Of a stretch of DNA of 64,000 nt, positions 6,265-63,244 are shown piece by piece. A program made the position numbers and the translations under genes. This stretch comes from Umbilicaria muhlenbergii (lineage: Eukaryota > Ascomycota > Lecanoromycetes > Umbilicariales > Umbilicariaceae), in contig KK106981.1 in NCBI GenBank assembly GCA_000611775.1, positions 4,590,927 to 4,654,926 of the forward strand, in the 5' to 3' direction. How positions within the stretch are numbered: the stretch's first letter is position 1; the number at the start of each line of letters is the position of its first letter. Below the pieces are notes generated by a model. The model saw only the letters and a program-made list of their open reading frames with translations, made no database searches and was not told where the DNA came from.

Positions 6265-8553
6265 CTACAAGTACACCGGTAGCAACAATCCCCGTGCCTT
6301 TCTCCCCCGCCCGACCTCTCTCCCGCTCCCATCATTTCCCTCTCTTTTTACCTCTACGAGTCCCCTCCCAACATCCCACCTCCTGATCCCAACTTTCCCT
6401 CTCTTCCTCCCCCCCCCCAATCTCCTCCTTTCCCCTCCTTTCCCCTCCTTTCCCCTCCTTTCCCCTCCTTTCCCCTCCTTTCCCCTCCTTTCCCCTCCTT
6501 TCCCCTCCTTTCCCCTCCTTTCCCCTCCTTTCCCCACCCCCACCACCCCCGCCGCCAGAAGATTAACCACCACGCCCAGCACCCACACCAACCCGGCAAA
6601 AGCCACGTACAAGACCTTCAGCGCCGCCCTCGTCGCCGTCGCCAACCGCACATCGTCGACATCGAACGCGGGTGTGAACTGCGCCATCCCCTTCTCGACT
6701 GGCGCGGCGGTGTGCTGTCGACTCGGGTGTTGGAGACCGCCCATTTCGAGATCCCGATCCCGATCCCGATCCGTGTCCATGTCCCTCTCGCTCGGGTGAG
6801 GGTGGTGGTGAGAGATAGCCGTAGCGTCCGATCGGCGTCGAGAGGTGCTGAATCTCGACAGCTTGGCGGAGCGGGGACTTTTCGTCTTCGCCTTCCCTTT
6901 CCCTTTGGCGGCGACACTGGCAGCCGTGGGTGGCGGCGCGAAGGTCATCGTAGTCGTCGTGGTCGAGAGGAGGGAGTCGCGACGGCGGGAGCGGGGCGAG
7001 GGGAAAGAGAGCGGAAGGGATGGATGGGTAGGCTGAGCATCGGAGGCGGAGGAGCGGTGCAAGTGCAAGAGGAGGGTCAAAAGCGCAGCGAGCAGCGAAT
7101 CGAGGAGATAAAGCGACCCGAGCCGCGCAATGCGCTGTGCATCAAGCCTCACCGCCAACGTACCCATCTCCAGCACCATCAACTCCGCTCTGGTCCCCCT
7201 CGTCGTCGCGCTGTCCGTCCCCGCCAACGACAGGGGTGAAGTGCCCGAGGGGGCCAAAACCCGAACACGGCCCAGCCCGCCCGTGCGCGCGTCCTTCTCC
7301 ACCGCAATCTCGAACGTCGCGGCGTCCCCGTCCGTCAGCGTCGGATGCACGAGCCAATACCGGCTGGAGTCGTCGTCCCAGTACAACGCACAGCCCTCAC
7401 GCTCCTTGGCCCTCACGAGCGCTTCGGCCTGCAACTCGCCGCTCGTGGCGCGGTCGAGTTTATACGACACCGCGACGGTGGAGCTCTGGTCTAGGGCCAT
7501 GAGTTCGGCCATGGTGGGGAAGATGGAAGCGAGGAGGGGTTGAGAGGGGCCGAGGGGGAGGAGGGTGGGGGAGGCGATGGTGAGGGGTGCGGGGGAAGGG
7601 TGGGTGGNNNNGGAAGGGTGGGTGGGATGGGTGCGGGTGATGGTGTGGGTGGGGGAGGTGGGGGAGGCGGAGAGGGAGTAGAGGGGGGTGGAGAGGGAGG
7701 AGAGGAGGTGGATGGATTCGAGGGAGGGGGCGAGGGATGTACTGCCGCGGGGTGGTTAGTTGGGAGCCGAGATGAAGGATGCGGAAAGAGAAGGGGGGAG
7801 GCACCATTCTAGTTGGAGAGTGTAGGTTGAGGTGGGGGGGTCGAGGCTTTGACCATTGGCTAGACTCCAGAGGTCGAGGAGGTCGGAAGGAGAGGAAAAT
7901 TCGGGTCGTGGTTCTGGTGGAGGTGGGACGGAGGAGATGGTCGTTGGTACAGCCGGGGGTTTGGGATGAATGTAGCCGGGTTTTGAGATTGGTGTGTTTT
8001 CGGATTGCGAGTAAAAGCTCGACGAGTATTCCGCCCTCGTCATCGCCGCGTTCGGGATACGACTGGGGCCTCTTTCAATGGTAGGGTAGTATCGCTGCTG
8101 TTGGAGAGGTATGGTCGGATCGAATCGGGGAAACATCGACCGCATAACCGGCGAATGCACTGATGTTGGGGATGCATTCCCCTTACAATCCGAGACCGGA
8201 GAACTTGTCTGCAGAACCGGCAAGCCCTCTGCAGGAGCCTGTGTCTCTGCGTGGCTATCTGAAGGCGATGGAGGCAACTCGATGTTTGATGGAGTTGGTG
8301 ATATGGCCCGTGATGTGTCGTCCGCCAAATGTGCTCTTGGAGGTTCTTGTATAATGTCATGGGTAGATCTCGTGGGTGAGGCTTCAGTGATCGAAATCAC
8401 CACCGCAGCGGTTGCCATCCCCTTGCCATCATATAGTGGTTTGACCATCTCGAAGTCTGGCTCCGAAGGTGGTTTGCCGGCGTAACGGGGGCGACCTGGT
8501 CCATTCCTCCGCAGAGACGCGGAGGGGAAGAGTCGGAGGACTTGTTCTGCCAT
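6265..8553 (-). CDS. Conserved fungal membrane protein, unknown function
   Basis: Exon 1 runs 8553-7805 from an ATG (MAEQVLRLFPSASLRR) and is Pro/Ser-rich. A 63-nt intron (7742-7804) joins it in frame to the second exon, which crosses a 4-N gap and stays open if the gap is really 4 nt. The second exon has an amphipathic or membrane-associated stretch (SLYLLDSLLAALLTLLLHLH) and a hydrophobic C-terminal segment (VLYVAFAGLVWVLGVVVNLL then AAGVVGVGKG). Directly after this the frame enters the 10-bp minisatellite and encodes a Gly/Glu/Arg/Lys repeat tail before stopping at 6265. The true end may lie before the minisatellite if an unseen splice is used. I recall no named family; similar proteins exist in other Dothideomycetes as far as I remember. 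Confidence 0.65.
6424..6535. repeat. 10-bp minisatellite, about 10-11 copies
   Basis: The + strand unit is TCCCCTCCTT, with ten perfect copies from 6431 to 6530 and partial copies at each side. On the minus strand it lies inside the open frame of the membrane protein and encodes a 10-residue peptide per three units. Because 10 is not a multiple of 3, gain or loss of one unit changes the downstream frame. Confidence 0.95.
7608..7611. other. Assembly gap of 4 N
   Basis: Four N lie between two direct copies of GGAAGGGTGGGTGG (7594-7607 and 7612-7625), so the gap marks a tandem repeat that the assembler could not size. A length of 4 happens to keep the membrane-protein frame open. Confidence 0.95.
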
Positions 8554-23320: not shown

Positions 23321-25228
23321 ATGTTTGCTTTTGATGCCGCAGACAGGCACTTTTCTCCGCTGGGCAACCCCCCATTATGCAGCGCCGACGAATCTATTAC
23401 TCCTCTGGGACCTCAAGGGCTCCATCTTTCTCTCTCGAATAAGAAACATGGGAGGCCTCAAAATGCATATGAAGGAAAAACTAGTCTTCCCTCAGGTGCA
23501 GACGTATTTCCTGGCACAAATACGGCCCAGGATTCACAGGAGCTGCAAGATACCAATATCGACGTGTCTATGAGTGAAGACGAGAAAGATACTCGTATTT
23601 CAAGGGGATTCACTATGATGGGTTCTGGAACGCCTCCAATCAATATTGCGATGACTCCAACACAATCCAGAAGCAGGAGCAGAGGAAGACGAGACGACGG
23701 AGATGTGCCAAATATTCCAGACCCTACCCCGAGACCCGCTCCGATCAGTGGCAGGGCAGCACGGAAGAAGAAACGTGCGCAGAAGAAAGCCGCAGCATCT
23801 CCCGCTTTGAGTACCGTTCGAGGGTTTACGCCTGCAGCATCCGGTGATGATGACTCGGATTACTCTACCGGGGGCAGCTTCAAGAGGAAAGATCTGAAAG
23901 TCGGAGCCATGGCCAGCGTTACAAGTAGCCCTGGTCTTCGACCTTCGTCTTCATGTGGTGGTATCAGCGCTTTGAGGCAACAACTTGACGCGCTTGACCT
24001 GGAACCCGTCCCTGGTAGGCCTTCGTTGATCAGGAACAAAAGCAAGCTTGGGTCGGAAACACCTAGCACTGCCAGTGTGACATCTGATACCTTGAGTGAT
24101 GGGGACTCAACGGAGATGACAAGCTACGAAGTGCCACTGGAGCATGACTTCATCAGCTCAGACGTGGGTCCAAAAGGAACCGATAGCGGCTTGGGTTCGA
24201 CGCTGGATAACGCGACCCGCAAAATGACGGCCTCCGACTTTGAACCCTTGAGCTGTCTCGGCAAAGGCACATTCGGTACAGTACTCCTAGTAAAGCAGGT
24301 ATCCACCGGCCGCCTCTACGCCCAAAAACAATTCCGCAAAGCCTCCCTGACAGTCCACAAGCGCCTCGTCGAGCAAACCAAGACCGAGCGCGTCATCCTC
24401 GAAAGCGTAAACCGGCACCCCTTCGTCGTCAAACTCTACTACGCCTTCCAAGACCAAGAAAAGCTTTACCTGATCCTCGAATACGCCCAAGGGGGCGAAC
24501 TCTTCACCCACCTCGCCGCCGAGCGCATGTTCCCCGAAGACACCGCCGCCTTCTACATGGCCGAAATGGTCCTCGCCCTCGAACATCTGCACCACACCGT
24601 CGGCGTCGTCTATCGGGACCTGAAACCCGAAAACTGCCTCCTAGACTCCGAAGGGCACCTCCTGCTCACGGACTTCGGCCTCAGCAAAGTCTCCCTCGAT
24701 TCGTCCTCTTCCGACGCGCGCTGCACCTCCATGCTCGGCACCATCGAATACATGGCCCCCGAGGTGATCCTCGGCCACGCCTACGACACCGCCGTCGACT
24801 GGTGGTCCTTTGGCGCTCTCGGCTACGACCTCCTCACCGGCTCGCCCCCCTTCCAGGCCAACAACCACGCCAAGATCCAAGAGAAGATCCTGAAGCAGAA
24901 ACTCGCCCTGCCCTACTTCCTCGGCCCGGACGCCAAAGACCTCCTCACGCGCCTCTTGCGCAAGGAACCCGGCAAACGCCTCGGGGGTTGCATGCCCAGG
25001 GATATGCAGACCATCAAGACCCATCGGTTTTTCCGCAAGATCGACTGGAAGGCGTTGGAGAGGAGAGAGCTGGAGCCGCCTATCAGGCCGCTTATTACCG
25101 ATCCGGCGGCGGCGGAGAATTTTTCCAATGAGTTTACCGGGTTGGCGCTTAGTCCGGTGACGACGATGCAGCAGGAAGGGGGGATGTGGGGGGCGGGGCA
25201 GGGGGGAGTTTACCGGGTTGGCGCTTAG
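23321..25228 (+). CDS. AGC protein kinase, S6K/Psk1-like
   Basis: A long Ser-rich disordered N-terminus is followed by a complete kinase domain: glycine loop LGKGTFGTVLLV, catalytic Lys in YAQKQF, YRDLKPENCLLD, TDFGLSK, T-loop with SMLGTIEYMAPE, and VDWWSFGALGYDLLTGSPPF. The AGC C-tail begins with HRFFRKIDWKALERRELEPP. The order and the T-loop match fungal S6-kinase-like kinases (S. pombe Psk1 type), which work under TOR. The frame stops at TAG 25228 after NEFTGLALSPVTTMQQEGG. A 76-bp tandem duplication (25131-25282) causes this: past the second copy the conserved hydrophobic motif FGGFSF and a natural end are encoded in another frame (25284-25358). The start was set at MFAFDAADRHF; 23195 is an alternative. 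Confidence 0.9.
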   Translation: MFAFDAADRHFSPLGNPPLCSADESITPLGPQGLHLSLSNKKHGRPQNAYEGKTSLPSGADVFPGTNTAQDSQELQDTNIDVSMSEDEKDTRISRGFTMMGSGTPPINIAMTPTQSRSRSRGRRDDGDVPNIPDPTPRPAPISGRAARKKKRAQKKAAASPALSTVRGFTPAASGDDDSDYSTGGSFKRKDLKVGAMASVTSSPGLRPSSSCGGISALRQQLDALDLEPVPGRPSLIRNKSKLGSETPSTASVTSDTLSDGDSTEMTSYEVPLEHDFISSDVGPKGTDSGLGSTLDNATRKMTASDFEPLSCLGKGTFGTVLLVKQVSTGRLYAQKQFRKASLTVHKRLVEQTKTERVILESVNRHPFVVKLYYAFQDQEKLYLILEYAQGGELFTHLAAERMFPEDTAAFYMAEMVLALEHLHHTVGVVYRDLKPENCLLDSEGHLLLTDFGLSKVSLDSSSSDARCTSMLGTIEYMAPEVILGHAYDTAVDWWSFGALGYDLLTGSPPFQANNHAKIQEKILKQKLALPYFLGPDAKDLLTRLLRKEPGKRLGGCMPRDMQTIKTHRFFRKIDWKALERRELEPPIRPLITDPAAAENFSNEFTGLALSPVTTMQQEGGMWGAGQGGVYRVGA

Positions 25229-25282
25229 TCCGGTGACGACGATGCAGCAGGAAGGGGGGATGTGGGGGGCGGGGCAGGGGGG
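25131..25282. repeat. 76-bp direct tandem duplication in kinase 3' end
   Basis: AGTTTACCGGGTTGGCGCTT begins at 25131 and again at 25207, and the two copies match base for base through the following GC-rich part to the poly-G tract. The copy number of G at the junction is 6 in the first copy and 8 in the second. The period of 76 is 1 modulo 3, so the second copy is read in a shifted frame. Confidence 0.97.
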
Positions 25283-42907: not shown

Positions 42908-44070
42908 CTAAAAGTTATAATACCCCACCCCACACGGCCCCGCAATCGTCCCCGTACTCCTAAAATCCGGCGCGACATTCGGCCCATACGTCAGCCCCGC
43001 GAACAAGCCCGCCGGACAAACGGCACTCGCCCCCGTCCCCGTCCCACTGGTCAAATTGGTAGCCTGCGAGACGACACAGCCCTGGTAGGAATAATAGTAC
43101 GCGTTCACACAGTTGGGGATCTCGAAGAAACAGGTGTTGCAGCACGCGGTGGCGGAGGCGCCTTCGGGCGTGTCGAGGTAGAAACGGGAGTTCGAGAGGC
43201 CGAGGTCGGAGGCGGAGAGGTGGTCGCCGTAGGCGGGGCCGGGGGAGGGGAGGGGGAAGGCGCAGGGGTAGATGGTTTTGGTTGTGGGGGGTGGGAGGAC
43301 CTAGGTTTGGGGAGGGGGGATGTTAGCGGGGAGATGGAGAATGGGAGAGGNNNNNNNNNNNNNNNNNNNNNNCTTACGGTAGTGGTTGCGACGGCGACGG
43401 TGATGGTGGTGTAGGAGGCCGGGATGGAGACGGGGGGGCAGTCGCAGGTGGTGGTTGTGGTGGAGGAGGGGGGTGAGGTTGTGCTGATGGAGGTGGGGGT
43501 TGTGTACGGTGCGGCTGTTTCCGCGGTGCTGGTTAGACAGGAGCAGGCGCTGGAGATGCGCGAGGGGTTGCATTGCGTGGGGATGTAGGTGGGGAGGCCT
43601 ATCGTTGCCGTGTTGGTCGTTTGGGTGTATGTGGCGCAGAATGGGGCACCGGTGTGGCGTCTCAAGGCGCGCAGACAGTTGTCCGCATTGCATCCGTTTC
43701 GGGGGAGGATGTCGTTGACGGCTTGTTCGTCGGCCTCGGGGCTGGCGAGACGCTTTATGGCGGGGGCGGACGAGGCGGGAGGGTTGCCGGGGAGAAAGAT
43801 GTTGGATGTGCTGAGTGGAGGTCAATAGGGAGGTCGGTTCAGGTGTCAAGATGGTACTCACGAGGGCGTTCCTGTTACGGTTTCAGTTGTGGTTCCGGTA
43901 CTGTACTTGGTGAGTATATGGTGGTCTGTGAGGAGTACGCGCACATACGCAGTTACGGTAATGGTGTGAGTTGACGCGGGTATGGTGTCGGTGCAACATG
44001 GGGGTTCAGCGACCAGAGCCTGCACTAGTGGTGCCAGGGCAAATGCCAGAAGGGACGAATGGATATACAT
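42908..44070 (-). CDS. Secreted Cys-rich protein with apple/PAN-like C-terminus
   Basis: Three exons. Exon 1 (44070-43862) starts MYIHSSLLAFALAPLVQALV, a clear signal peptide, followed by Thr-rich sequence. Exon 2 (43810 to about 43381) contains a Cys pair region (GCNADNCLRALRRHTGAPFC) and a Thr/Ser/Pro-rich linker likely to be O-glycosylated. The second intron contains the 22-N gap and ends at TAG near 43303. Exon 3 has ASATACCNTCFFEIPNCVNA and YYYSYQGCVVSQATN and ends GVGYYNF at 42908; its spacing of Cys resembles apple/PAN modules. The protein is probably extracellular or wall-associated. I know no function for it. Confidence 0.8.
43351..43372. other. Assembly gap of 22 N
   Basis: The gap lies inside the second intron of the secreted-protein gene, so it does not affect the protein model. 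Confidence 0.95.
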
Positions 44071-49262: not shown

Positions 49263-49866
49263 CACGGCCGACAATGCCTTTGCGACAGTATTGTCATGTG
49301 AGGGAGCAGGCCGATGGAGTTGCTGCTTGATGAAAGATAAGAGGCTCGACTGAAGTCGATGACGCGCAAGTGCCGGGTCCGCATTAAGTGTTTCTCCGGC
49401 AGGCCCAAAACAACACTTGGCTGAGTGTTGGCTATCATTCACATCTCCTTCACTGTCCTTACATGATAGTAATTGTAATGAATACTATCGCTTCGCTTTC
49501 TTTCTCTTTCTCTTTCTCTTTCTCTTTCTCTTTCTCTTTCTCTTTCTCTTTCTCTTTCTCTTTCTCTTTCTCTTTCTCTTTCTCTTTCTCTTTCTTCTCT
49601 CCTCACCATGCGTCACTTCAACCATCTTTGGCAGACATCTGGACAGAACCCATCAATGCCCACCTCACATCAAAACTGAAATCCAGTACATCTCCTATGT
49701 CCACGAGCTTTTCGTCTGAGATAGGTCATTATCATAGCTGTTTGCTAAATCGCTGTGTTATTGGGACACCGCATCACCCTTTGTCTGCTGTCAATCCATC
49801 TCTTGTCTTGGTTTCCTGAACGTCCATCACTCGTCAGATCAGATCGTTCGTACATTGCGGTCCATC
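49263..49866. promoter_or_regulatory. Divergent promoter region with TTTCTC microsatellite
   Basis: This lies between the ferric reductase start (minus) and the BTB copy 2 start (plus). It contains the hexanucleotide array listed separately, which is a purine/pyrimidine-asymmetric tract able to form a triplex. Confidence 0.6.
49498..49594. repeat. (TTTCTC)n microsatellite, about 15-16 copies
   Basis: The hexamer TTTCTC repeats without error from 49501 to about 49590. It is all pyrimidine on the + strand. It lies in the shared upstream region of the ferric reductase and BTB copy 2. Confidence 0.97.
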
Positions 49867-56089: not shown

Positions 56090-57749
56090 ATGGTCTCTAC
56101 TGCGGCGCCGTCCTTGTTGGCATTCGCCAGGCTGGCAGGGCGAAGAGTGCCAGCCAGTGGCTTGGGGCATTTGGCGCGGCGGTGTATGGCGACGGCAGCG
56201 GTGGATTCTTCGACGCTTCCATTGGCAGGCGTACGGATACTGGATATGACGAGAGTGCTGGCCGGCGTACGTCGAAAATAGGAAATACGTCTATACTCTG
56301 TACTGTCAAGCTAATTCGACCATCTAGCCATACTGCACGCAAATACTTGGAGACTTAGGGTTCGTCAATTGAGACCCAGTATGGACCATTTCCAGCGAGG
56401 TCGGCCATCAATTGCCTCAGATGCTCGTACTGATGTTCCTGTTGGAAAATAGAGCGGAGGTAATCAAAATAGAACATCCTACAAGAGGAGACGACACTCG
56501 AGCATGGGGTCCACCATACGCAAAGCATATCCGGGGAGACAAGAAGGATAGCCCTGGGGAAAGCGCCTACTTCCTGGCGGTATGCAAACAAACTCCCTTC
56601 CCCTATGCAATATCCAGCTGATATGCGCAAGGTCAACCGCAACAAGAAATCCCTCGCCCTCTCCTTCGCCCACCCCTCCGGCGTCTCCATCCTCCACAAA
56701 CTCGTCAAAGACTGCGACGTCCTAGTCGAAAACTACATCCCCGACTCCCTCAAGAAATACAACATGGACTACGAGTCCCTACGGAAAATAAACCCGGGCC
56801 TTATCTACGCCAGCATTACAGGTTACGGACAAACAGGACCGTATCGGAAACGAGCCGGCTACGATGTCATGGTCGAGGCAGAGATGGGCTTGATGCATAT
56901 CACCGGCTCGAGAGATGGTCCACCAGTGAAAGTCGGGGTAGCAGTGACGGACTTGACGACGGGGCTGTACACGTCGAATTCGATCATGGCAGCACTATTG
57001 GCGAGGGTGAAGACAGGAAAGGGGCAGCATATCGATGCGGCGCTGAGTGACTGTCAGGTGGCGACGTTGGCGAATATGGCGAGTTCGGCGTTGATCAGTG
57101 GGCAGCCGGATTCAGGGAGGTGGGGGACAGCACATCGTATGTTCAAGGTCGCTGGTCACCTAACCCAATGGAACTGACGGGAAAAGCTTCAATCGTCCCT
57201 TACAAAGCTTTCAAGACGGCAGATGGCGATATTCTCGTCGGTGGAGGCAACGACCGGCTATTCGGAGTCCTATGCGACAGCCTCGGGAGACCCGAATGGA
57301 AGACCGATGGTAGATTCATCACAAATTCCCTACGAGTACAAAACCGCGTGGAACTCGAAGCGATGATCGAAGATGAAACGAAGACAAAGACGACGAAGGA
57401 GTGGCTCGATGTTCTAGAAGGGACGGGTATGCCATATGCTGCTGTGAATGATATCCAGGGCACGATGAACCATGAGCATGGTAAGAAACCACCTTTCTAG
57501 CGGCTGAGAGGAGTAATTGCCTATGACACCGCTACAGTACTCGCTCGCGACATGGTCAAAGAGGTTGAACACCCTACCTGCGGACCAATGAAGCTCGTCA
57601 ATACGCCAGTGAAATACTCGCACTCGACGCCAAGTATCAGAACGCCGCCGCCACTGCTGGGACAGCATACGGATGAAGTATTGCGGGATGTGGTGGGAAT
57701 GACCGAGGAAGAGATCCGGGGATTAAAGAGTGAAGGCGTTGTAGCGTAG
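56090..57749 (+). CDS. CaiB/BaiF CoA-transferase, SUGCT-like, mitochondrial
   Basis: Six exons: 56090-56266, 56328-56359, 56453-56579, 56632-57136, 57187-57480 and 57538-57749. The N-terminus (MVSTAAPSLLAFARLAGRRV, then ARRCMATAAVDSS) looks like a mitochondrial targeting sequence. Family motifs after splicing: PLAGVRILDMTRVLAGPYCT, GAEVIKIEHPTRGDDTRAWG, NRNKKSLALSFAHPSG, LVENYIPDSLKKYNMDYESL, INPGLIYASITGYGQTGPY, RAGYDVMVEAEMGLMHITGS, GPPVKVGVAVTDLTTGLY and PVKYSHSTPSIRTPPPLLGQ. These are class III CoA-transferases; closest in layout are succinyl-CoA:glutarate CoA-transferases. The catalytic Asp is expected in VEAEMG or the nearby TDLTTG; I cannot fix it. Dependence on CoA and organic acids points to mitochondrial metabolism. 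Confidence 0.92.
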
Positions 57750-58639
57750 GTAGGAGATGGTGGAGATGCGGAGTACATACCATTATACGAAAAAGTCATT
57801 CATGATGCCAGATCTACATATTTTATTCGCAGCGCCGAGTTAGTCAATTAATATGACTGACCACGCCGGAGGATCAAATTCATCCACGCCTACTCTCCCT
57901 GCTCTCTTAAAAGCATTGAGAATCTTTACCAATTCTTCCCCTCCGTTCCCGGTTGGCAGGCCTGCGCCACCCCCCCCTTCCCCTTTTTTTCCGTGTACGA
58001 AATCCGAAATTTCTTGAATTTGAGTTCAAAATATAGAGAATTGGGCGGGATGGTCTCTGGCGTATCAAAAGCTGTCCATGTCGTTCCGCAGCCTTGTATC
58101 TACCAATAGTGCTGCCGGCGGCCAAAAGTCCCCCGCGGAGAACCCCCCTTCCCTTTGAAACGATCTGGACGACGACAACTCCCTCAACGGTAGGAATGGC
58201 GCAGAGAAATCAATGACTTGCAAGAAGCTGTCCGCGGGATTCCGCGCTATATATTTACCAGATGTCGTTGCTGGTGGGAGGTCTCTGCCCCAGAATCTGG
58301 ATTTTGCAATATCTGTTCAACGCCAATAGGATTCATACAGAGGGACGGTGACGTTGCCCTGATCTGCCCTTGAGATTCCGTAGTGACGGCGCTGCCAGTA
58401 ACGTGGTCAACATACGTTTTTCCCATCCATAGGGACCCCCCCCCTCCCCCTTCTTTCGGAAAAATGCTGAAATATGAAAACACATGCTTTGCTCTTAGGA
58501 ATGGTACGGGATGTGTAAATAGTAAAGATAAGGCCTCCGTCCAATTCCGCAGCCATCGACTTGCGATGAACTTTTGGTAGCAGCGGCATCCAGGCCGCAA
58601 AAATCACAAACACACAAAGTTGGACCGGAGCCTTTAGGA
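57750..58639. other. Intergenic approach to the satellite array
   Basis: No gene. Isolated ATTCCGC or ATTCCGT sites appear here (about 58239, 58374 and 58543), and single TTAGGAAT sites near 58495 and 58634, which are the core motifs of the array to the right. These may be remnants of older units. Confidence 0.5.
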
Positions 58640-60450
58640 ATCACGAGGAAAGCACGGAAACAGATCCTAAACATTCCGCCAGATTCCGCAATTGTGTAGT
58701 TTCAAATTGCGTTGTTGACTATCTTTTTCATCCAGTCCGGTGGCAGAAATTTCAAAACATGAGCTTAAAGCCAATGAAGTTAGGAACCACGCGGAGAGCT
58801 TTATCATGGCTCCTAAACATTCCGCCAGATTCCGCAATTGTGTAGTTGCAAATTGCGTTGTTGACTGTCTCTCCACCCCGGGGGGGGTGAGAAATTCCAA
58901 AATGGTGAGCTTAATGCCAATGAAGTTAGGAGTCACGCGGAGAGCTTTATCATGGCTCCTAAACATTCCGCTAGATTCCGCATATGTCTAGTTCCGAACT
59001 GCGTTGTTGACTGTCCCTCCACGCCCGGGGGGGTGAGAAATTCCAAAATTGTGAGCTTAAAGCCAATGAAGTTAGGAATCACGCGGAGAGCTTTACCATG
59101 GCTCCTAAACATTCCGCCAGATTCCGTAGGTCTGTAGTTTCAAATTGCGTTGTTGGCTGCCTTTTCCCTTCACGCCGGGGTGAGAAATTTCAAAATTGTG
59201 AGCTTAAAGCCAATGAAGTTAGGAATCACGCATAGAGCTTAATGACAGCTCCTAAGCATTCCGCTAGATTCCGTAGGTTTGTAGTTTCAAACTGCGTTGT
59301 TGACTATCTTTTTCATCCAGTCCGGTGGCAGAAATTTCAAAACATGAGCTTAAAGCCAATGAAGTTAGGAACCACGCGGAGAGCTTAGCAATGACTCCTA
59401 AACATTCCGCCAGATTCCGCAATTGTGTAGTTGCAAATTGCGTTGTTGACTGTCTCTCCACCCCGGGGGGGGTGAGAAATTCCAAAATGGTGAGCTTAAT
59501 GCCAATGAAGTTAGGAGTCACGCGGAGAGCTTTATCATGGCTCCTAAACATTCCGCCAGATTCCGCAATTGTGTAGTTGCAAATTGCGTTGTTGACTGTC
59601 TCTCCACCCCGGGGGGGGTGAGAAATTCCAAAATGGTGAGCTTAATGCCAATGAAGTTAGGAGTCACGCGGAGAGCTTTATCATGGCTCCTAAACATTCC
59701 GCCAGATTCCGCAATTGTGTAGTTGGCAGAAATTTCAAATCCATGAGTTTAAAGCCGATTATGTTAGGAATCACGCGGAGAGCTTACTGACAGTTCCTAA
59801 ACATTCCGCTAGATTCCGCGGGTCTGTAGTTTCAAATTGCTTTGTTGGCTGTCTTTTCATCCAGTCCGGTGGCAGAAATTTCAAATCCATGAGTTTAAAG
59901 CCAATTATGTTAGGAATCACACGGAGAGTATAACAAGGGCTCCTAAACATTCCGCTAGATTCCGTAGGTGTGTAGTCTCAAGTTGCGTTGTTGGCTGTCT
60001 TTTCCCTCCACGCCGGCGGGGGTTGAGAAATTGCAAAACCATGAGCTCAAAGGCATTCATGTTAGGAATCACGCGGAGAGTACAATGACAGTTCCTAAAC
60101 ATTCCGCTAGATTCCGCATATGTCTAGTTTCAAACTGCGTTGTTGGCTGTCCCTCCACACGGAGGGGGGTGAGAAATTCCAAAATTGTGAGCTTAAAGCC
60201 AATGATGTTAGGAATCACACGGAGAGCTTTACAATGACTCCTAAACATTCCGCTAGATTCCGCGGTTGTCTAGTTTCATATTGCATTGTTGGCTGTCTTT
60301 TTCCTCCACGCGGGGGTGAGAAATTACAAGAAATTACAAAATCATGAACCTAAAGCCAATGACGTTAGGAATCACGCGGAGAGCTTAATGGCGGTTTCTA
60401 AACATTCCGCCAGATTCCGCAGGTGTGTAATTTCGAATTGCGTTGTTGGC
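58640..60450. repeat. Satellite-like tandem array, family A, about 146 bp, 13 units
   Basis: CATTCCG starts recur at 58672, 58818, 58964, 59110, 59257, 59403, 59549, 59695, 59802, 59948, 60100, 60245 and 60403. Spacing is 146 bp for most, with one short unit (107 bp) and a few of 145-158 bp. Each unit holds ATTCCGC twice, 10 bp apart, then GCGTTGTTGRCTG, a C/G-run palindrome, GTGAGAAATTCCAAAA-like sequence and TTAGGAATCACGCGGAGAGC. Units 1-2 (58672-58963) closely match units 5-6 (59257-59548), a four-unit higher-order period of 585 bp. Units 2, 6 and 7 are nearly identical. Open frames within it only reflect the repeat. Confidence 0.95.
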
Positions 60451-60454
60451 TGTC

Positions 60455-60960
60455 TTTTTCACATTCAGAGCCCAGATCATGAGACTCTGCAAGAGAATCC
60501 GCATTTTCACTACAATGTCTTTGAGATTTATGCGGAATTCTTATCCAAGGCGTGCAACGATTCCGTCACATTCCGCGGGTTCAGATCCGGAGAGGGCCTC
60601 GTCGGCGCCAAATCTCCGTCTGGAGCCCAGAAATTGAAACTCTGCAAGAGAATCCGCAGTTTTGATACAACGTCCTTCGGATCTATGCAGAATTCTTATC
60701 CAAGGCTTACAACGCCTCCGTCACATTCCGCAGGTTCAGATCCTCAGAGGCCGTCGTCGGCGTCAAATCTTCATCCGGAGCCCAGATATTGATACTCTGC
60801 AAGAGAATCCGCAGTTTGGATACAATGTCTTTCGGATTGATCCGGAACTCTCATCTAGGCAGTGCAACGATTCCGTCACATTCCGCGGGTTCAGATCCAG
60901 AGAGGGCGTCGTCGGTGCCAAATCTCCGTACTCGAGACGCAAACCCTGCAACCATGCACG
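60455..60960. repeat. Tandem array, family B, 155 bp, three units
   Basis: CTCTGCAAGAGAATCCGCA recurs at 60485, 60640 and 60795, exactly 155 bp apart. Each unit also holds CACATTCCGC and a GGAGCCCAG block. It directly follows family A and shares the ATTCCGC core. Confidence 0.9.
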
Positions 60961-61025
60961 AGGAAGCTGCAAATTCCAAGTGATGGATATAGGACGCTTA
61001 CGGAATGCTTTACTAGAGTTCTGGA

Positions 61026-61480
61026 TGTCTCCGCCGGATTCCGCAGATCTAAATGCAAAGGGAGGCCTGCTGACATCAGATTTCCGCTTTCTACCCCCGC
61101 CCCCATGAATTATGTCAAAAACCTGCAAATCCGGAGCGGAGTCATTAGGAATCACGCACAGAGCTTCCCAGCTCTTGAAAGTGCTCTATCTACATTCCGT
61201 ATATCTGGCTCCCAAGGGGCCGCTGCTGACATCAGATTTTCGCTTTCCGCCCCCGCCCCCATGAATTATGTCAAAAACCTGCAAATCTGGAGCGGAGTCA
61301 TTAGGAATCACACACAGAGCTTCCCAGCTCTTGAAAGTGCTCTATCTCCATTCCGTATGTCTGGCTCCAAGGGGGTCATGCTGCCGCCATATTTCCGCCT
61401 ACCCAGCCCCTGAGAATTCGAAAACTGTGATATGCGTGCAATGGGGTTAGGAATCATGGAGAAGGACTGTGCGGGTCTCA
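61026..61480. repeat. Tandem array, family C, 156 bp, about three units
   Basis: CCCCATGAATTATGTC recurs at 61102 and 61258, 156 bp apart. A third, diverged unit ends at about 61480 and reads GAGAATTCGAAAACTGTGAT followed by GGGGTTAGGAATCATGGAGA, which matches the family A pattern; the unit order (CATTCCG, C-run, GAAATT or GAATT, TTAGGAATC) is shared with A. The array therefore links A and C as relatives. Confidence 0.85.
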
Positions 61481-62669
61481 GAGTCTCTCCGCCAGAAGAC
61501 AAAGGTCTCCGCCGGTCCGCGGCGTGCAGGGCGACGGGGTTTGGAAGGTAGGTTGGATGGAAGTCGGTTTTTGCAATATAGGAAAGGAGACGTTAGGAGA
61601 CGTTAGGATTGGCAGGGTATCATGCTGTTACTGATACTATGTATCCGCTACATTCCGCACATGTACAGAGGCAAGAAGCGTTGCTGGCGGTTATCTTTCT
61701 CCCATGGTGAACCCCCTATATCGATTCTTTCGATTCTTCCAAATCTTCTGATAATTCTTTAGGAATACGGCGGAGGATTGACATACACCGTCAGATTTAT
61801 CTATCGCATCCCTATCCTTTCCGCTACACTCTGCGTTGTATGGCAGAAGAATTACGGGTGCGGGCCGGGAAGGAACGACTATGTACCATAAAGTTGAAAG
61901 ACGCCCCGTGCCCCGTCACCAAAAAAATACAAGACAGAGAAGATATGGAAATGACACAGGATAGACTTAAAGCTCCTCTAATGCCTCTCCGATTTCCAGA
62001 GCTCTTCCGTTGCAGTATGCCTGCCGCAACGGTAGTTGATTCCGGATCCCCTGGCGGAAAAACCCAGACACTGAGCAACGGCGTAGAAAGGTGTCGAAAC
62101 GACGGGGAAGGATCTTTTGAACTGCTCTAAACCCCCTGTCAGCTTCCTAAGTTATCTGAATGCATACAGTGTTTACAGCATCCGGTTTCCATGTAATATC
62201 GTTTTCCGTTACGAGGTCGATATCTTGCGTTACGGGGTTAGGATTTTGCATTACGCGTGTCGGACAATGCAAATAGGAGAGTGTATGTTCTCCGCTAGGA
62301 CGTGGTACCAGTATATACTAACAAGGAACATCAGGCTCAATTTTTGTCTCGTAGAGCAGTAAGCGGACACGATTGTTAGTCACGGCGATGCACGATTGTT
62401 AGTCCAGAGTTACGGAATAGGGAGATATAGGACAACATGGTTAGGGTTGTACATGGGTTACTAGGGGGTCACAGGGGGTTTCCGGAGAGTCATAGGGGGT
62501 TGTTGTAGGGGGTTGTTGTAGGGGGTTTGTTGTAGGGGGTTGTTGTAGGGTTGATCATGGAATTTCTCACGTGGTTGGAACTACAACTGCCGTGAAGTCA
62601 TGTTAGAGTGCAAATAGTCTAGCCTATTCAACCTTTCTGATATTCGCTATGTGATCGGCTCGCAAGAAC
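61481..62669. other. Flank of the array; no firm gene
   Basis: Isolated array motifs (CATTCCGC near 61651, TTTAGGAATACGGCGG near 61759) persist here. A 96-codon open frame at 61840-62130 starts at an ATG but matches nothing that I know. The G-rich minisatellite lies at the right end. Confidence 0.45.
62438..62552 (+). repeat. G-rich minisatellite with TTAGGG-like element
   Basis: The + strand has GGTTAGGGTTG at 62439, then repeated runs of five G in units like TTGTTGTAGGGGG (about 13-14 bp) through 62552. Four or more G-runs in close spacing make a G-quadruplex possible. Confidence 0.85.
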
Positions 62670-63244
62670 CTAACTTTCTGGAAGAATTGACCCCTGACCA
62701 ACTTGATTTTGTCCATCAAAGATCTGGAAGTTAACTGATCCGTATCCATATTGCTCCATCCAATCTCCCAAAGCCTCGAAAGCCGACTGAAGAACACCCC
62801 AGGTGACTTGATGGTTGTTGGCATTCGATATCGTGACTTCCAAACCCTCGTCTGACGGAAATTTATCAAAGGTCCCAGCCGGCATCACCCCATCACCGTG
62901 CGTCTCCAAATGCTCCTGTATAATCTCATAGACTTCCGCCAACGTGTCGAGGACAACACTCTGGGCAATTGCGGAGACACCCTTTAACACGATGTACGTG
63001 GCAGAGTCTGGAGCACACCAACGGACGTAGCCGGTGCTGGCGCGGGGGTGGACGCTGGCGAACAGAGCGGGTATGTTGTTACCGCCGGAGCCTACCTTAC
63101 TGGAATATTGGGGCGGACGTTAGTTGCCTAGAGCTCTGCATTCAAAGCTTGACACGTGAATAGGATTGCCACTTACGTTCCGGCTACCGCGTTAGGGAAA
63201 TTTTGGCATTTAGCGGCACTTCGAAGAGATATTGATGAAAACAT
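62670..63244 (-). CDS. Small unknown fungal protein, 165 residues
   Basis: Exon 1 (63244-63177) starts MFSSISLRSAAKCQNFPNAV and is joined across a 77-nt intron (acceptor CAG at 63100) to exon 2 (63099-62670), giving AGTKVGSGGNNIPALFASVH at the junction. The rest is a soluble domain: TGYVRWCAPDSATYIVLKGV, LDTLAEVYEIIQEHLETHGD, GLEVTISNANNHQVTWGVLQ and a Gly-rich end (QIFDGQNQVGQGSILPES). No membrane segment follows, and I do not recognise the family. A first exon upstream encoding a signal peptide cannot be excluded. The splice model restores a clean frame, so I regard it as a real gene, beside the satellite array. Confidence 0.7.

Follow-up and report, generated by a model that had tools for sequence, protein, structure and literature searches.

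The repeated DNA described here is a dispersed, composite satellite that is real and of a known kind; its interest lies in the small number of gene-flanking islands, in the mosaicism of its units between loci and in the CGGA-type motifs that its families share. Our preferred explanation, to which we give an even chance of being correct, is that the satellite is homogenized between loci and retains a CGGA-type core, probably through binding by a putative protein. The array was found in the window (the whole 64,000-nucleotide stretch that was analysed, C1:4590927–4654926 in a genome of 34.8 Mb and seven contigs), in which its units lie head to tail in tandem, with higher-order repeats and local homogenization.

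A composite array between a gene and a reading frame

The initial annotation described about 2.8 kb of tandem DNA built from three unit families, A, B and C, and both the array and the unit counts were confirmed. Tandem Repeats Finder (TRF) called a period of 146 over 58665–59725 and 59724–60458 (family A), a period of 155 with 3.0 copies over 60468–60929 (family B) and a period of 156 with 2.0 copies and 94% matches over 61067–61374 (family C). Family A comprises 12 complete units and 1 partial unit (58634–60462) and is followed by three B and three C units (Table 1). The complete A units start at 58634, 58780, 58926, 59072, 59219, 59365, 59511, 59657, 59764, 59910, 60062 and 60208, with lengths, in that order, of 146, 146, 146, 147, 146, 146, 146, 107, 146, 152, 146 and 157 bp. 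The extent and unit length first given for the array needed revision: recognizable units span 58191–61703, decayed ones lying at both ends, and A units in the window range from 107 to 157 bp, with spacings of up to 171 bp at other loci.

The proposed 585-bp higher-order repeat, in which units 1–2 reappear as units 5–6, is present, and the three nearly identical A units on which a recent local amplification had been suggested are units 2, 6 and 7 (97–99% identity). Across the whole window, CATTCCGC occurs 18 times (2.4 expected) and TTAGGAAT 13 times (1.6 expected), counts that none of 100 shuffles equalled in either case. The left neighbour of the array is a CoA-transferase family III gene (ORFs 56473–57500; Pfam) and the right neighbour is a reading frame on the minus strand (62670–63119) that has no Pfam match. 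In the approximately 5 kb between the two, the longest listed ORFs (184 and 172 amino acids) run through the repeats, and stop-to-stop ORFs of at most 184 amino acids traverse the array. As the A-unit length of 146 bp is not divisible by 3, no reading frame repeats. The repeated DNA is apparently non-coding. Just past the satellite, G-rich TAGGGGGTTGTTG repeats (4.4 copies, 62493–62550) occur with GTTAGGG-like words around them.

Table 1. Features of the satellite in the window and family-A loci in the genome
Feature	Position	Strand	Basis or remark
Decayed A-type unit, upstream of array	58191..58327	+	45.8 bits, all-loci profile; 16.3 bits, window-excluded profile (its shuffle control covered the B/C and downstream region, separate from 58191)
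Family A	58634..60361	+	12 complete units, mostly 146 bp; TRF, profile, alignment
Higher-order block, units 1–2	58634..58925	+	93.5% identity to 59219–59510, offset 585 bp
Quasi-palindromic core, example from unit 3	58929..58979	+	alignment columns 4–54
Higher-order block, second copy, units 5–6	59219..59510	+	unit comparison
Shortened A unit, 107 bp, middle part absent	59657..59763	+	profile, spacing, unit comparison
Partial A unit at A/B junction	60365..60462	+	profile positions 1–98, 90.8 bits
Family B, three 155-bp units	60468..60929	+	register starts near 60525, 60679, 60834
Family C, three ~156-bp units	60990..61446	+	register starts near 60990, 61145, 61301
Decayed A-type unit, downstream	61629..61703	+	33.6 bits, all-loci profile; 18.5 bits (61635–61702), window-excluded profile
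Locus A	C1:4.65 Mb		the window
Locus B	C1:8.98 Mb		family-A island
Locus C	C2:1.36 Mb		family-A island
Locus D	C2:2.92 Mb		family-A island
Locus E	C2:4.53 Mb		family-A island
Locus F	C2:6.13 Mb		vestige of three units, two of them partial and one complete
Locus G	C5:0.85 Mb		family-A island
Locus H	C7:1.19 Mb		family-A island

Islands across the genome

The window array is not unique, because family A recurs at eight loci on four of the seven contigs. This count is a lower bound, as the genome searches score best candidates only; among these best-scoring candidates there was no family-A locus on contigs 3, 4 and 6. A 761-bp family-A query gave 19 genome matches and a one-strand profile gave 72 matches in the eight loci, 51 of them complete. 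The A matches sit in eight islands and are not dispersed at random. All 28 exact genome copies of TTAGGAATCACGC fall within arrays at seven of the eight loci (reverse-pattern control, 0), and 55 of the 56 matches to a core pattern of 18 bases, for which at most 2 mismatches were allowed, lie inside islands (control, 4), the lone match outside carrying 2 mismatches. Of the 54 matches in a scan for the core grammar, 46 lie in islands and the other 8 are strays (control, 3); four of the strays were inspected and have no array of about 150 bp, and the others are at C1:7.365 Mb and on contigs 3, 4 and 6. Pairs of CATTCCG or of CAGGGGTA placed about 137–169 bp apart form clusters only at the known loci, in addition to 8 isolated pairs of the former (control, 7) and 1 of the latter (control, 2). 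An exact 20-base pattern had zero matches among viral contigs. The one match to an exact 18-base pattern, in a cyanobacterial MAG, was taken as chance; the 200 bases inspected there contain no array.

The islands are composite and about 1–4 kb long as assembled, sizes that may be under-counts through assembly collapse, and they have ORFs on both sides. Families adjoining the A arrays have periods of about 146–158 bp (TRF). A query from island H (H155) matched only at loci H, D, B and C, and a query from island E (E3) only at loci E, B and F; neither family has a fixed orientation with respect to A. Locus C contains six copies of an H155-related 146-bp unit that are 97% alike (TRF), and longer TRF periods were called at loci A (439), B (288), D (304–310) and H (291).

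The four islands on contig 2 lie at approximately 1.359, 2.921, 4.531 and 6.133 Mb, with gaps of 1,562, 1,610 and 1,602 kb (CV 0.013). Gaps as even as these arose in 0.00018 of random draws, in a post hoc test of one contig on which one island of the four is the vestige. The two contig-1 islands do not follow this spacing. An N run (about C2:2920435–2920580) lies at the edge of the locus-D island, making the copy number there uncertain. The vestigial locus (L022, C2:6.13 Mb) adjoins hAT-like and copia-like transposon ORFs, as judged by eye.

One superfamily with shared motifs

To place families B and C, we used a profile made from the units of the seven other loci, with the window units left out. 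The three C units scored 14.8, 11.1 and 10.4 bits and the three B units 12.6, 9.9 and 6.3 bits, all of them in register on the + strand; 35 of 200 dinucleotide shuffles gave any match, the best of them reaching 6.7 bits. Five of the six units are thus above the control and only the third B unit is not, and for this reason we read A, B and C as one superfamily at different ages, as the initial annotation had it, in which B and C are, to judge from these scores, diverged relatives of A. Elsewhere in the genome, the sole match to family B is 100 bp long (77%) and lies in the island at C2:1.36 Mb, and the genome search gave no second match to family C. The clean one-strand profile also matches the reverse strand, with up to 22.4 bits, owing to the quasi-palindromic core.

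The motif test took one unit-length stretch each from A, B, C, H155, G158, E3 and the right part of island G, with the test units and island limits picked by eye. Over all 6-mers on either strand, ATTCCG was the most widely shared (seven of seven families), and CGGAGA, GGAGAG and CATTCC were each found in six. Over 300 dinucleotide shuffles, the widest sharing of any 6-mer was 3, 4, 5 and 6 families in 22, 226, 50 and 2 instances, and never 7. CGGAGAG is present in five of the six units from outside family A (mean of 0.2 in shuffles; none of 1,000 shuffles as high). CGGAR is counted 23 times in these six units compared with 5.7 in shuffles (0 of 1,000 as high); its presence in all six was matched by 63 of 1,000 shuffles. 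Its density per kb is 19.4 for islands, 4.4 for flanks and 18.2 for island DNA with A masked, values that are inflated by repetition, which enriches any word of a unit: in masked islands one control word has 1.15 per kb compared with 0.30 in the flanks (3.8-fold, 8 copies), and a second is not denser (5.73 compared with 5.04). Given that B and C appear to be diverged relatives of A, the shared motifs may reflect common ancestry.

Within the core, GGAATC pairs with GATTCC, GCGGA with TCCGC and GAGC with GCTC around a variable loop, and the pairing sequences themselves differ somewhat between units. Identity is 94% in the core pair columns and 83% in the remaining columns. The 12-column mean conservation is lowest in the C/G tract, at 0.68–0.71, and reaches 0.95 where the unit starts; core blocks have values of 0.80–0.95, and columns 61–84 and 133–144, which lie outside the core, match most of these blocks with 0.90–0.92, so that strong conservation extends beyond the core.

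Probable exchange between loci

The alignment comprises 49 units (47 distinct), which are the 51 complete ones less the 107-bp unit and the decayed one at 58191. On a maximum-likelihood tree of these units, for which the bootstrap had not settled, the locus labels require 23 changes. This number is between the minimum of 7 and the shuffled mean of 32.6, and thus points to local clustering together with mixing between loci. By locus, the number of 500 label shuffles with values as low was 0 for A and D, 2 for G, 85 for H, 111 for B, 115 for C and 500 for E.

We also measured linkage over 56 informative columns. The mean r2 was 0.205 at distances of 1–5 bp, 0.049 at 6–15, 0.054 at 16–30, 0.052 at 31–60 and 0.029 at 61–150 bp, a decay that none of 2,000 permutations equalled and that lumps exchange together with recurrent and multi-base mutation. 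All four combinations occur in 1,215 of 1,539 site pairs, and short block variants recur across several loci. Because the tree is intermingled and association is lost beyond 5 bp, the units appear to be mosaics, best read as products of exchange between loci; frequent short-patch exchange would be the simplest reading of these patterns.

What might maintain the core

A satellite homogenized between loci with a protein-bound core, the reading that we prefer, could work as follows. Unequal exchange would lengthen and shorten the islands, and patches would move between loci through gene conversion or by way of circular copies that insert again. The core, a quasi-palindrome of CGGAR half-sites, would be kept by a putative sequence-specific protein; a fungal zinc-cluster type factor would presumably fit the CGG half-site. 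The protein-binding role is an inference. If such a protein binds the core, each island would be a dense cluster of binding sites. The repeat length, in this reading, would be a relic of the founding unit and not a nucleosome ruler. A stronger version, which we consider unlikely, is that the islands are genome-wide, sequence-defined elements, each carrying the CGGA-type core as its mark, with one dedicated putative DNA-binding protein, which would read them as anchors, boundaries or pairing sites, and that constant interchromosomal exchange keeps them alike. Were this the case, the even 1.56–1.61-Mb spacing of the four contig-2 islands would be meaningful.

The main rival to protein binding is that this is neutral, selfish satellite DNA spread by recombination only, with its motifs the product of ancestry and homogenization and with no protein or function; we regard this as a tentative but serious possibility. 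Recombination alone suffices for mosaic units and higher-order repeats, the core lacks covariation (see below), unit spacing drifts to 171 bp, and the arrays have edges at differing unit positions, with decayed units there. What such an account does not readily predict is conservation as uneven along the unit as that between the C/G tract and the unit start, or that ATTCCG and CGGAGA should be common to single units of nearly all families when the rest has diverged.

A length of 146 bp is that of the nucleosome core particle, and the initial annotation proposed that the array could phase nucleosomes or nucleate silencing. Its interpretation is supported in part: the array, the superfamily, the higher-order structure and the amplification stand, and phasing or silencing is unsupported by the indirect signals that we measured, which are weak or absent, and would be a doubtful explanation. 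The unit length is within the nucleosomal range, and families B and C, with periods of 155–156 bp, come close to the nucleosome repeat length of Aspergillus nidulans (154 bp; about 165 bp in budding yeast), as given in PMC5807854; the passages of PMC4938642 that were consulted gave no repeat length. Dyad and cruciform structures may also position nucleosomes, according to a review (PMC8122249). However, 146 bp allows no linker, and spacing between neighbouring A units scatters: 36 of 55 intervals are at 145–147 bp and 19 fall outside, over a range of 78–171 bp (nine intervals were dropped: one of 444, one of 465 and the seven that fall in the B/C part; the value of 78 involves a partial unit). 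The units may have a slight excess of AA/TT/TA periodicity at about 10 bp, within one standard deviation of background (mean 0.31, s.d. 0.79, for 51 units that are not independent of one another; mean 0.06, s.d. 0.65, for 387 windows of island flanks that served as genomic background, 29% of which reach the unit mean). There is no consistent RIP signature, as the RIP index is similar in islands (−0.57) and flanks (−0.53), and C-to-T change at CpA (14%, compared with 8–10% in other contexts) has no matching excess of G-to-A at TpG, which is low (4.5%). A centromeric role is a poor fit to islands that number up to four on one contig, with none found on three.

The core could instead belong to tandem non-coding RNA genes or small-RNA hairpin precursors on the + strand, which we judge improbable. 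Pairing in the core hairpin is kept in 95.3% of cells across the 47 distinct units, and the consensus fold has a z-score of −6.8 on the + strand compared with −1.4 on the − strand (100 column-shuffled alignments each). Yet covariation does not exceed that of shuffles: 5 cells are double-changed compared with 4.4, 3 pairs have double changes compared with 2.1 (147 of 500 shuffles as high) and the covariation score was equalled by 201 of 500 shuffles, so that the unit alignment lacks the covarying base pairs by which a structured RNA is recognized. Ten single-unit folds, on both strands, gave z-scores of −2.3 to +3.1 (A unit, −0.6), the pairing is not cleanly preserved in family B by eye, and an Rfam search returned only two matches, both far below the cut-offs. 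Given pairing that is kept without covariation and Rfam matches below cut-off, we read the core as a conserved dyad-symmetric sequence and not as a proven RNA. A search for inverted repeats with a 12-base minimum found none, and a scan for bacterial-type promoters and terminators was at chance level, with bacterial models being uninformative for this DNA.

That the islands are remnants or internal repeat blocks of a mobile element is very improbable: the loci are dispersed and the vestigial one adjoins transposon-like ORFs by eye, but the arrays have no common defined ends (they start at unit positions 1–109 and end at 56–143), and the ORFs by other loci resemble ordinary genes by eye (Pfam was run on the window only).

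Relation to known satellites

CENP-B box satellites similarly have a short motif common to otherwise differing units, which is what a protein-binding site would lead one to expect; here the motif differs, the locations of the islands give no hint of centromeres and binding is putative. Satellite DNA with higher-order repeats (PMC8122249), of which alpha satellite is an example, is alike in its head-to-tail units in the nucleosomal range, higher-order repeats, homogenization and dyads, but forms long (peri)centromeric blocks, whereas the islands here are intergenic, about 1–4 kb long and of mixed families. The islands as assembled, which lie amid ORFs and may have been shortened by assembly collapse, do not look like classical long heterochromatic or centromeric arrays. 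The TCAST1 satellite of Tribolium castaneum resembles them in having arrays scattered through gene-rich DNA (PMC5844308); it differs in that here eight loci were found, with additional co-located families and CGGA-type motifs. No fungal satellite of this kind appeared in the titles and abstract openings of the literature searched.

Should the core prove to be a binding site, the islands would offer a compact system in which to ask why satellites keep short motifs while the rest turns over, a question that could be tested by deleting a single island. If the satellite is neutral, it would still make a clear case of recombination between satellite islands scattered through a genome dense in genes.

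Other repeats in the window

Elsewhere in the window, an N run at 43351–43372 is, like that of locus D, an assembly gap or withheld sequence. An exact 76-bp tandem duplication (25130–25282; 2.0 copies, 100%; 76 is not divisible by 3) reflects either a recent event or an assembly effect. Perfect short arrays comprise CCTCCTTTCC in 11.2 copies at 6424–6535 and TCTTTC in 16.2 copies at 49499–49595.
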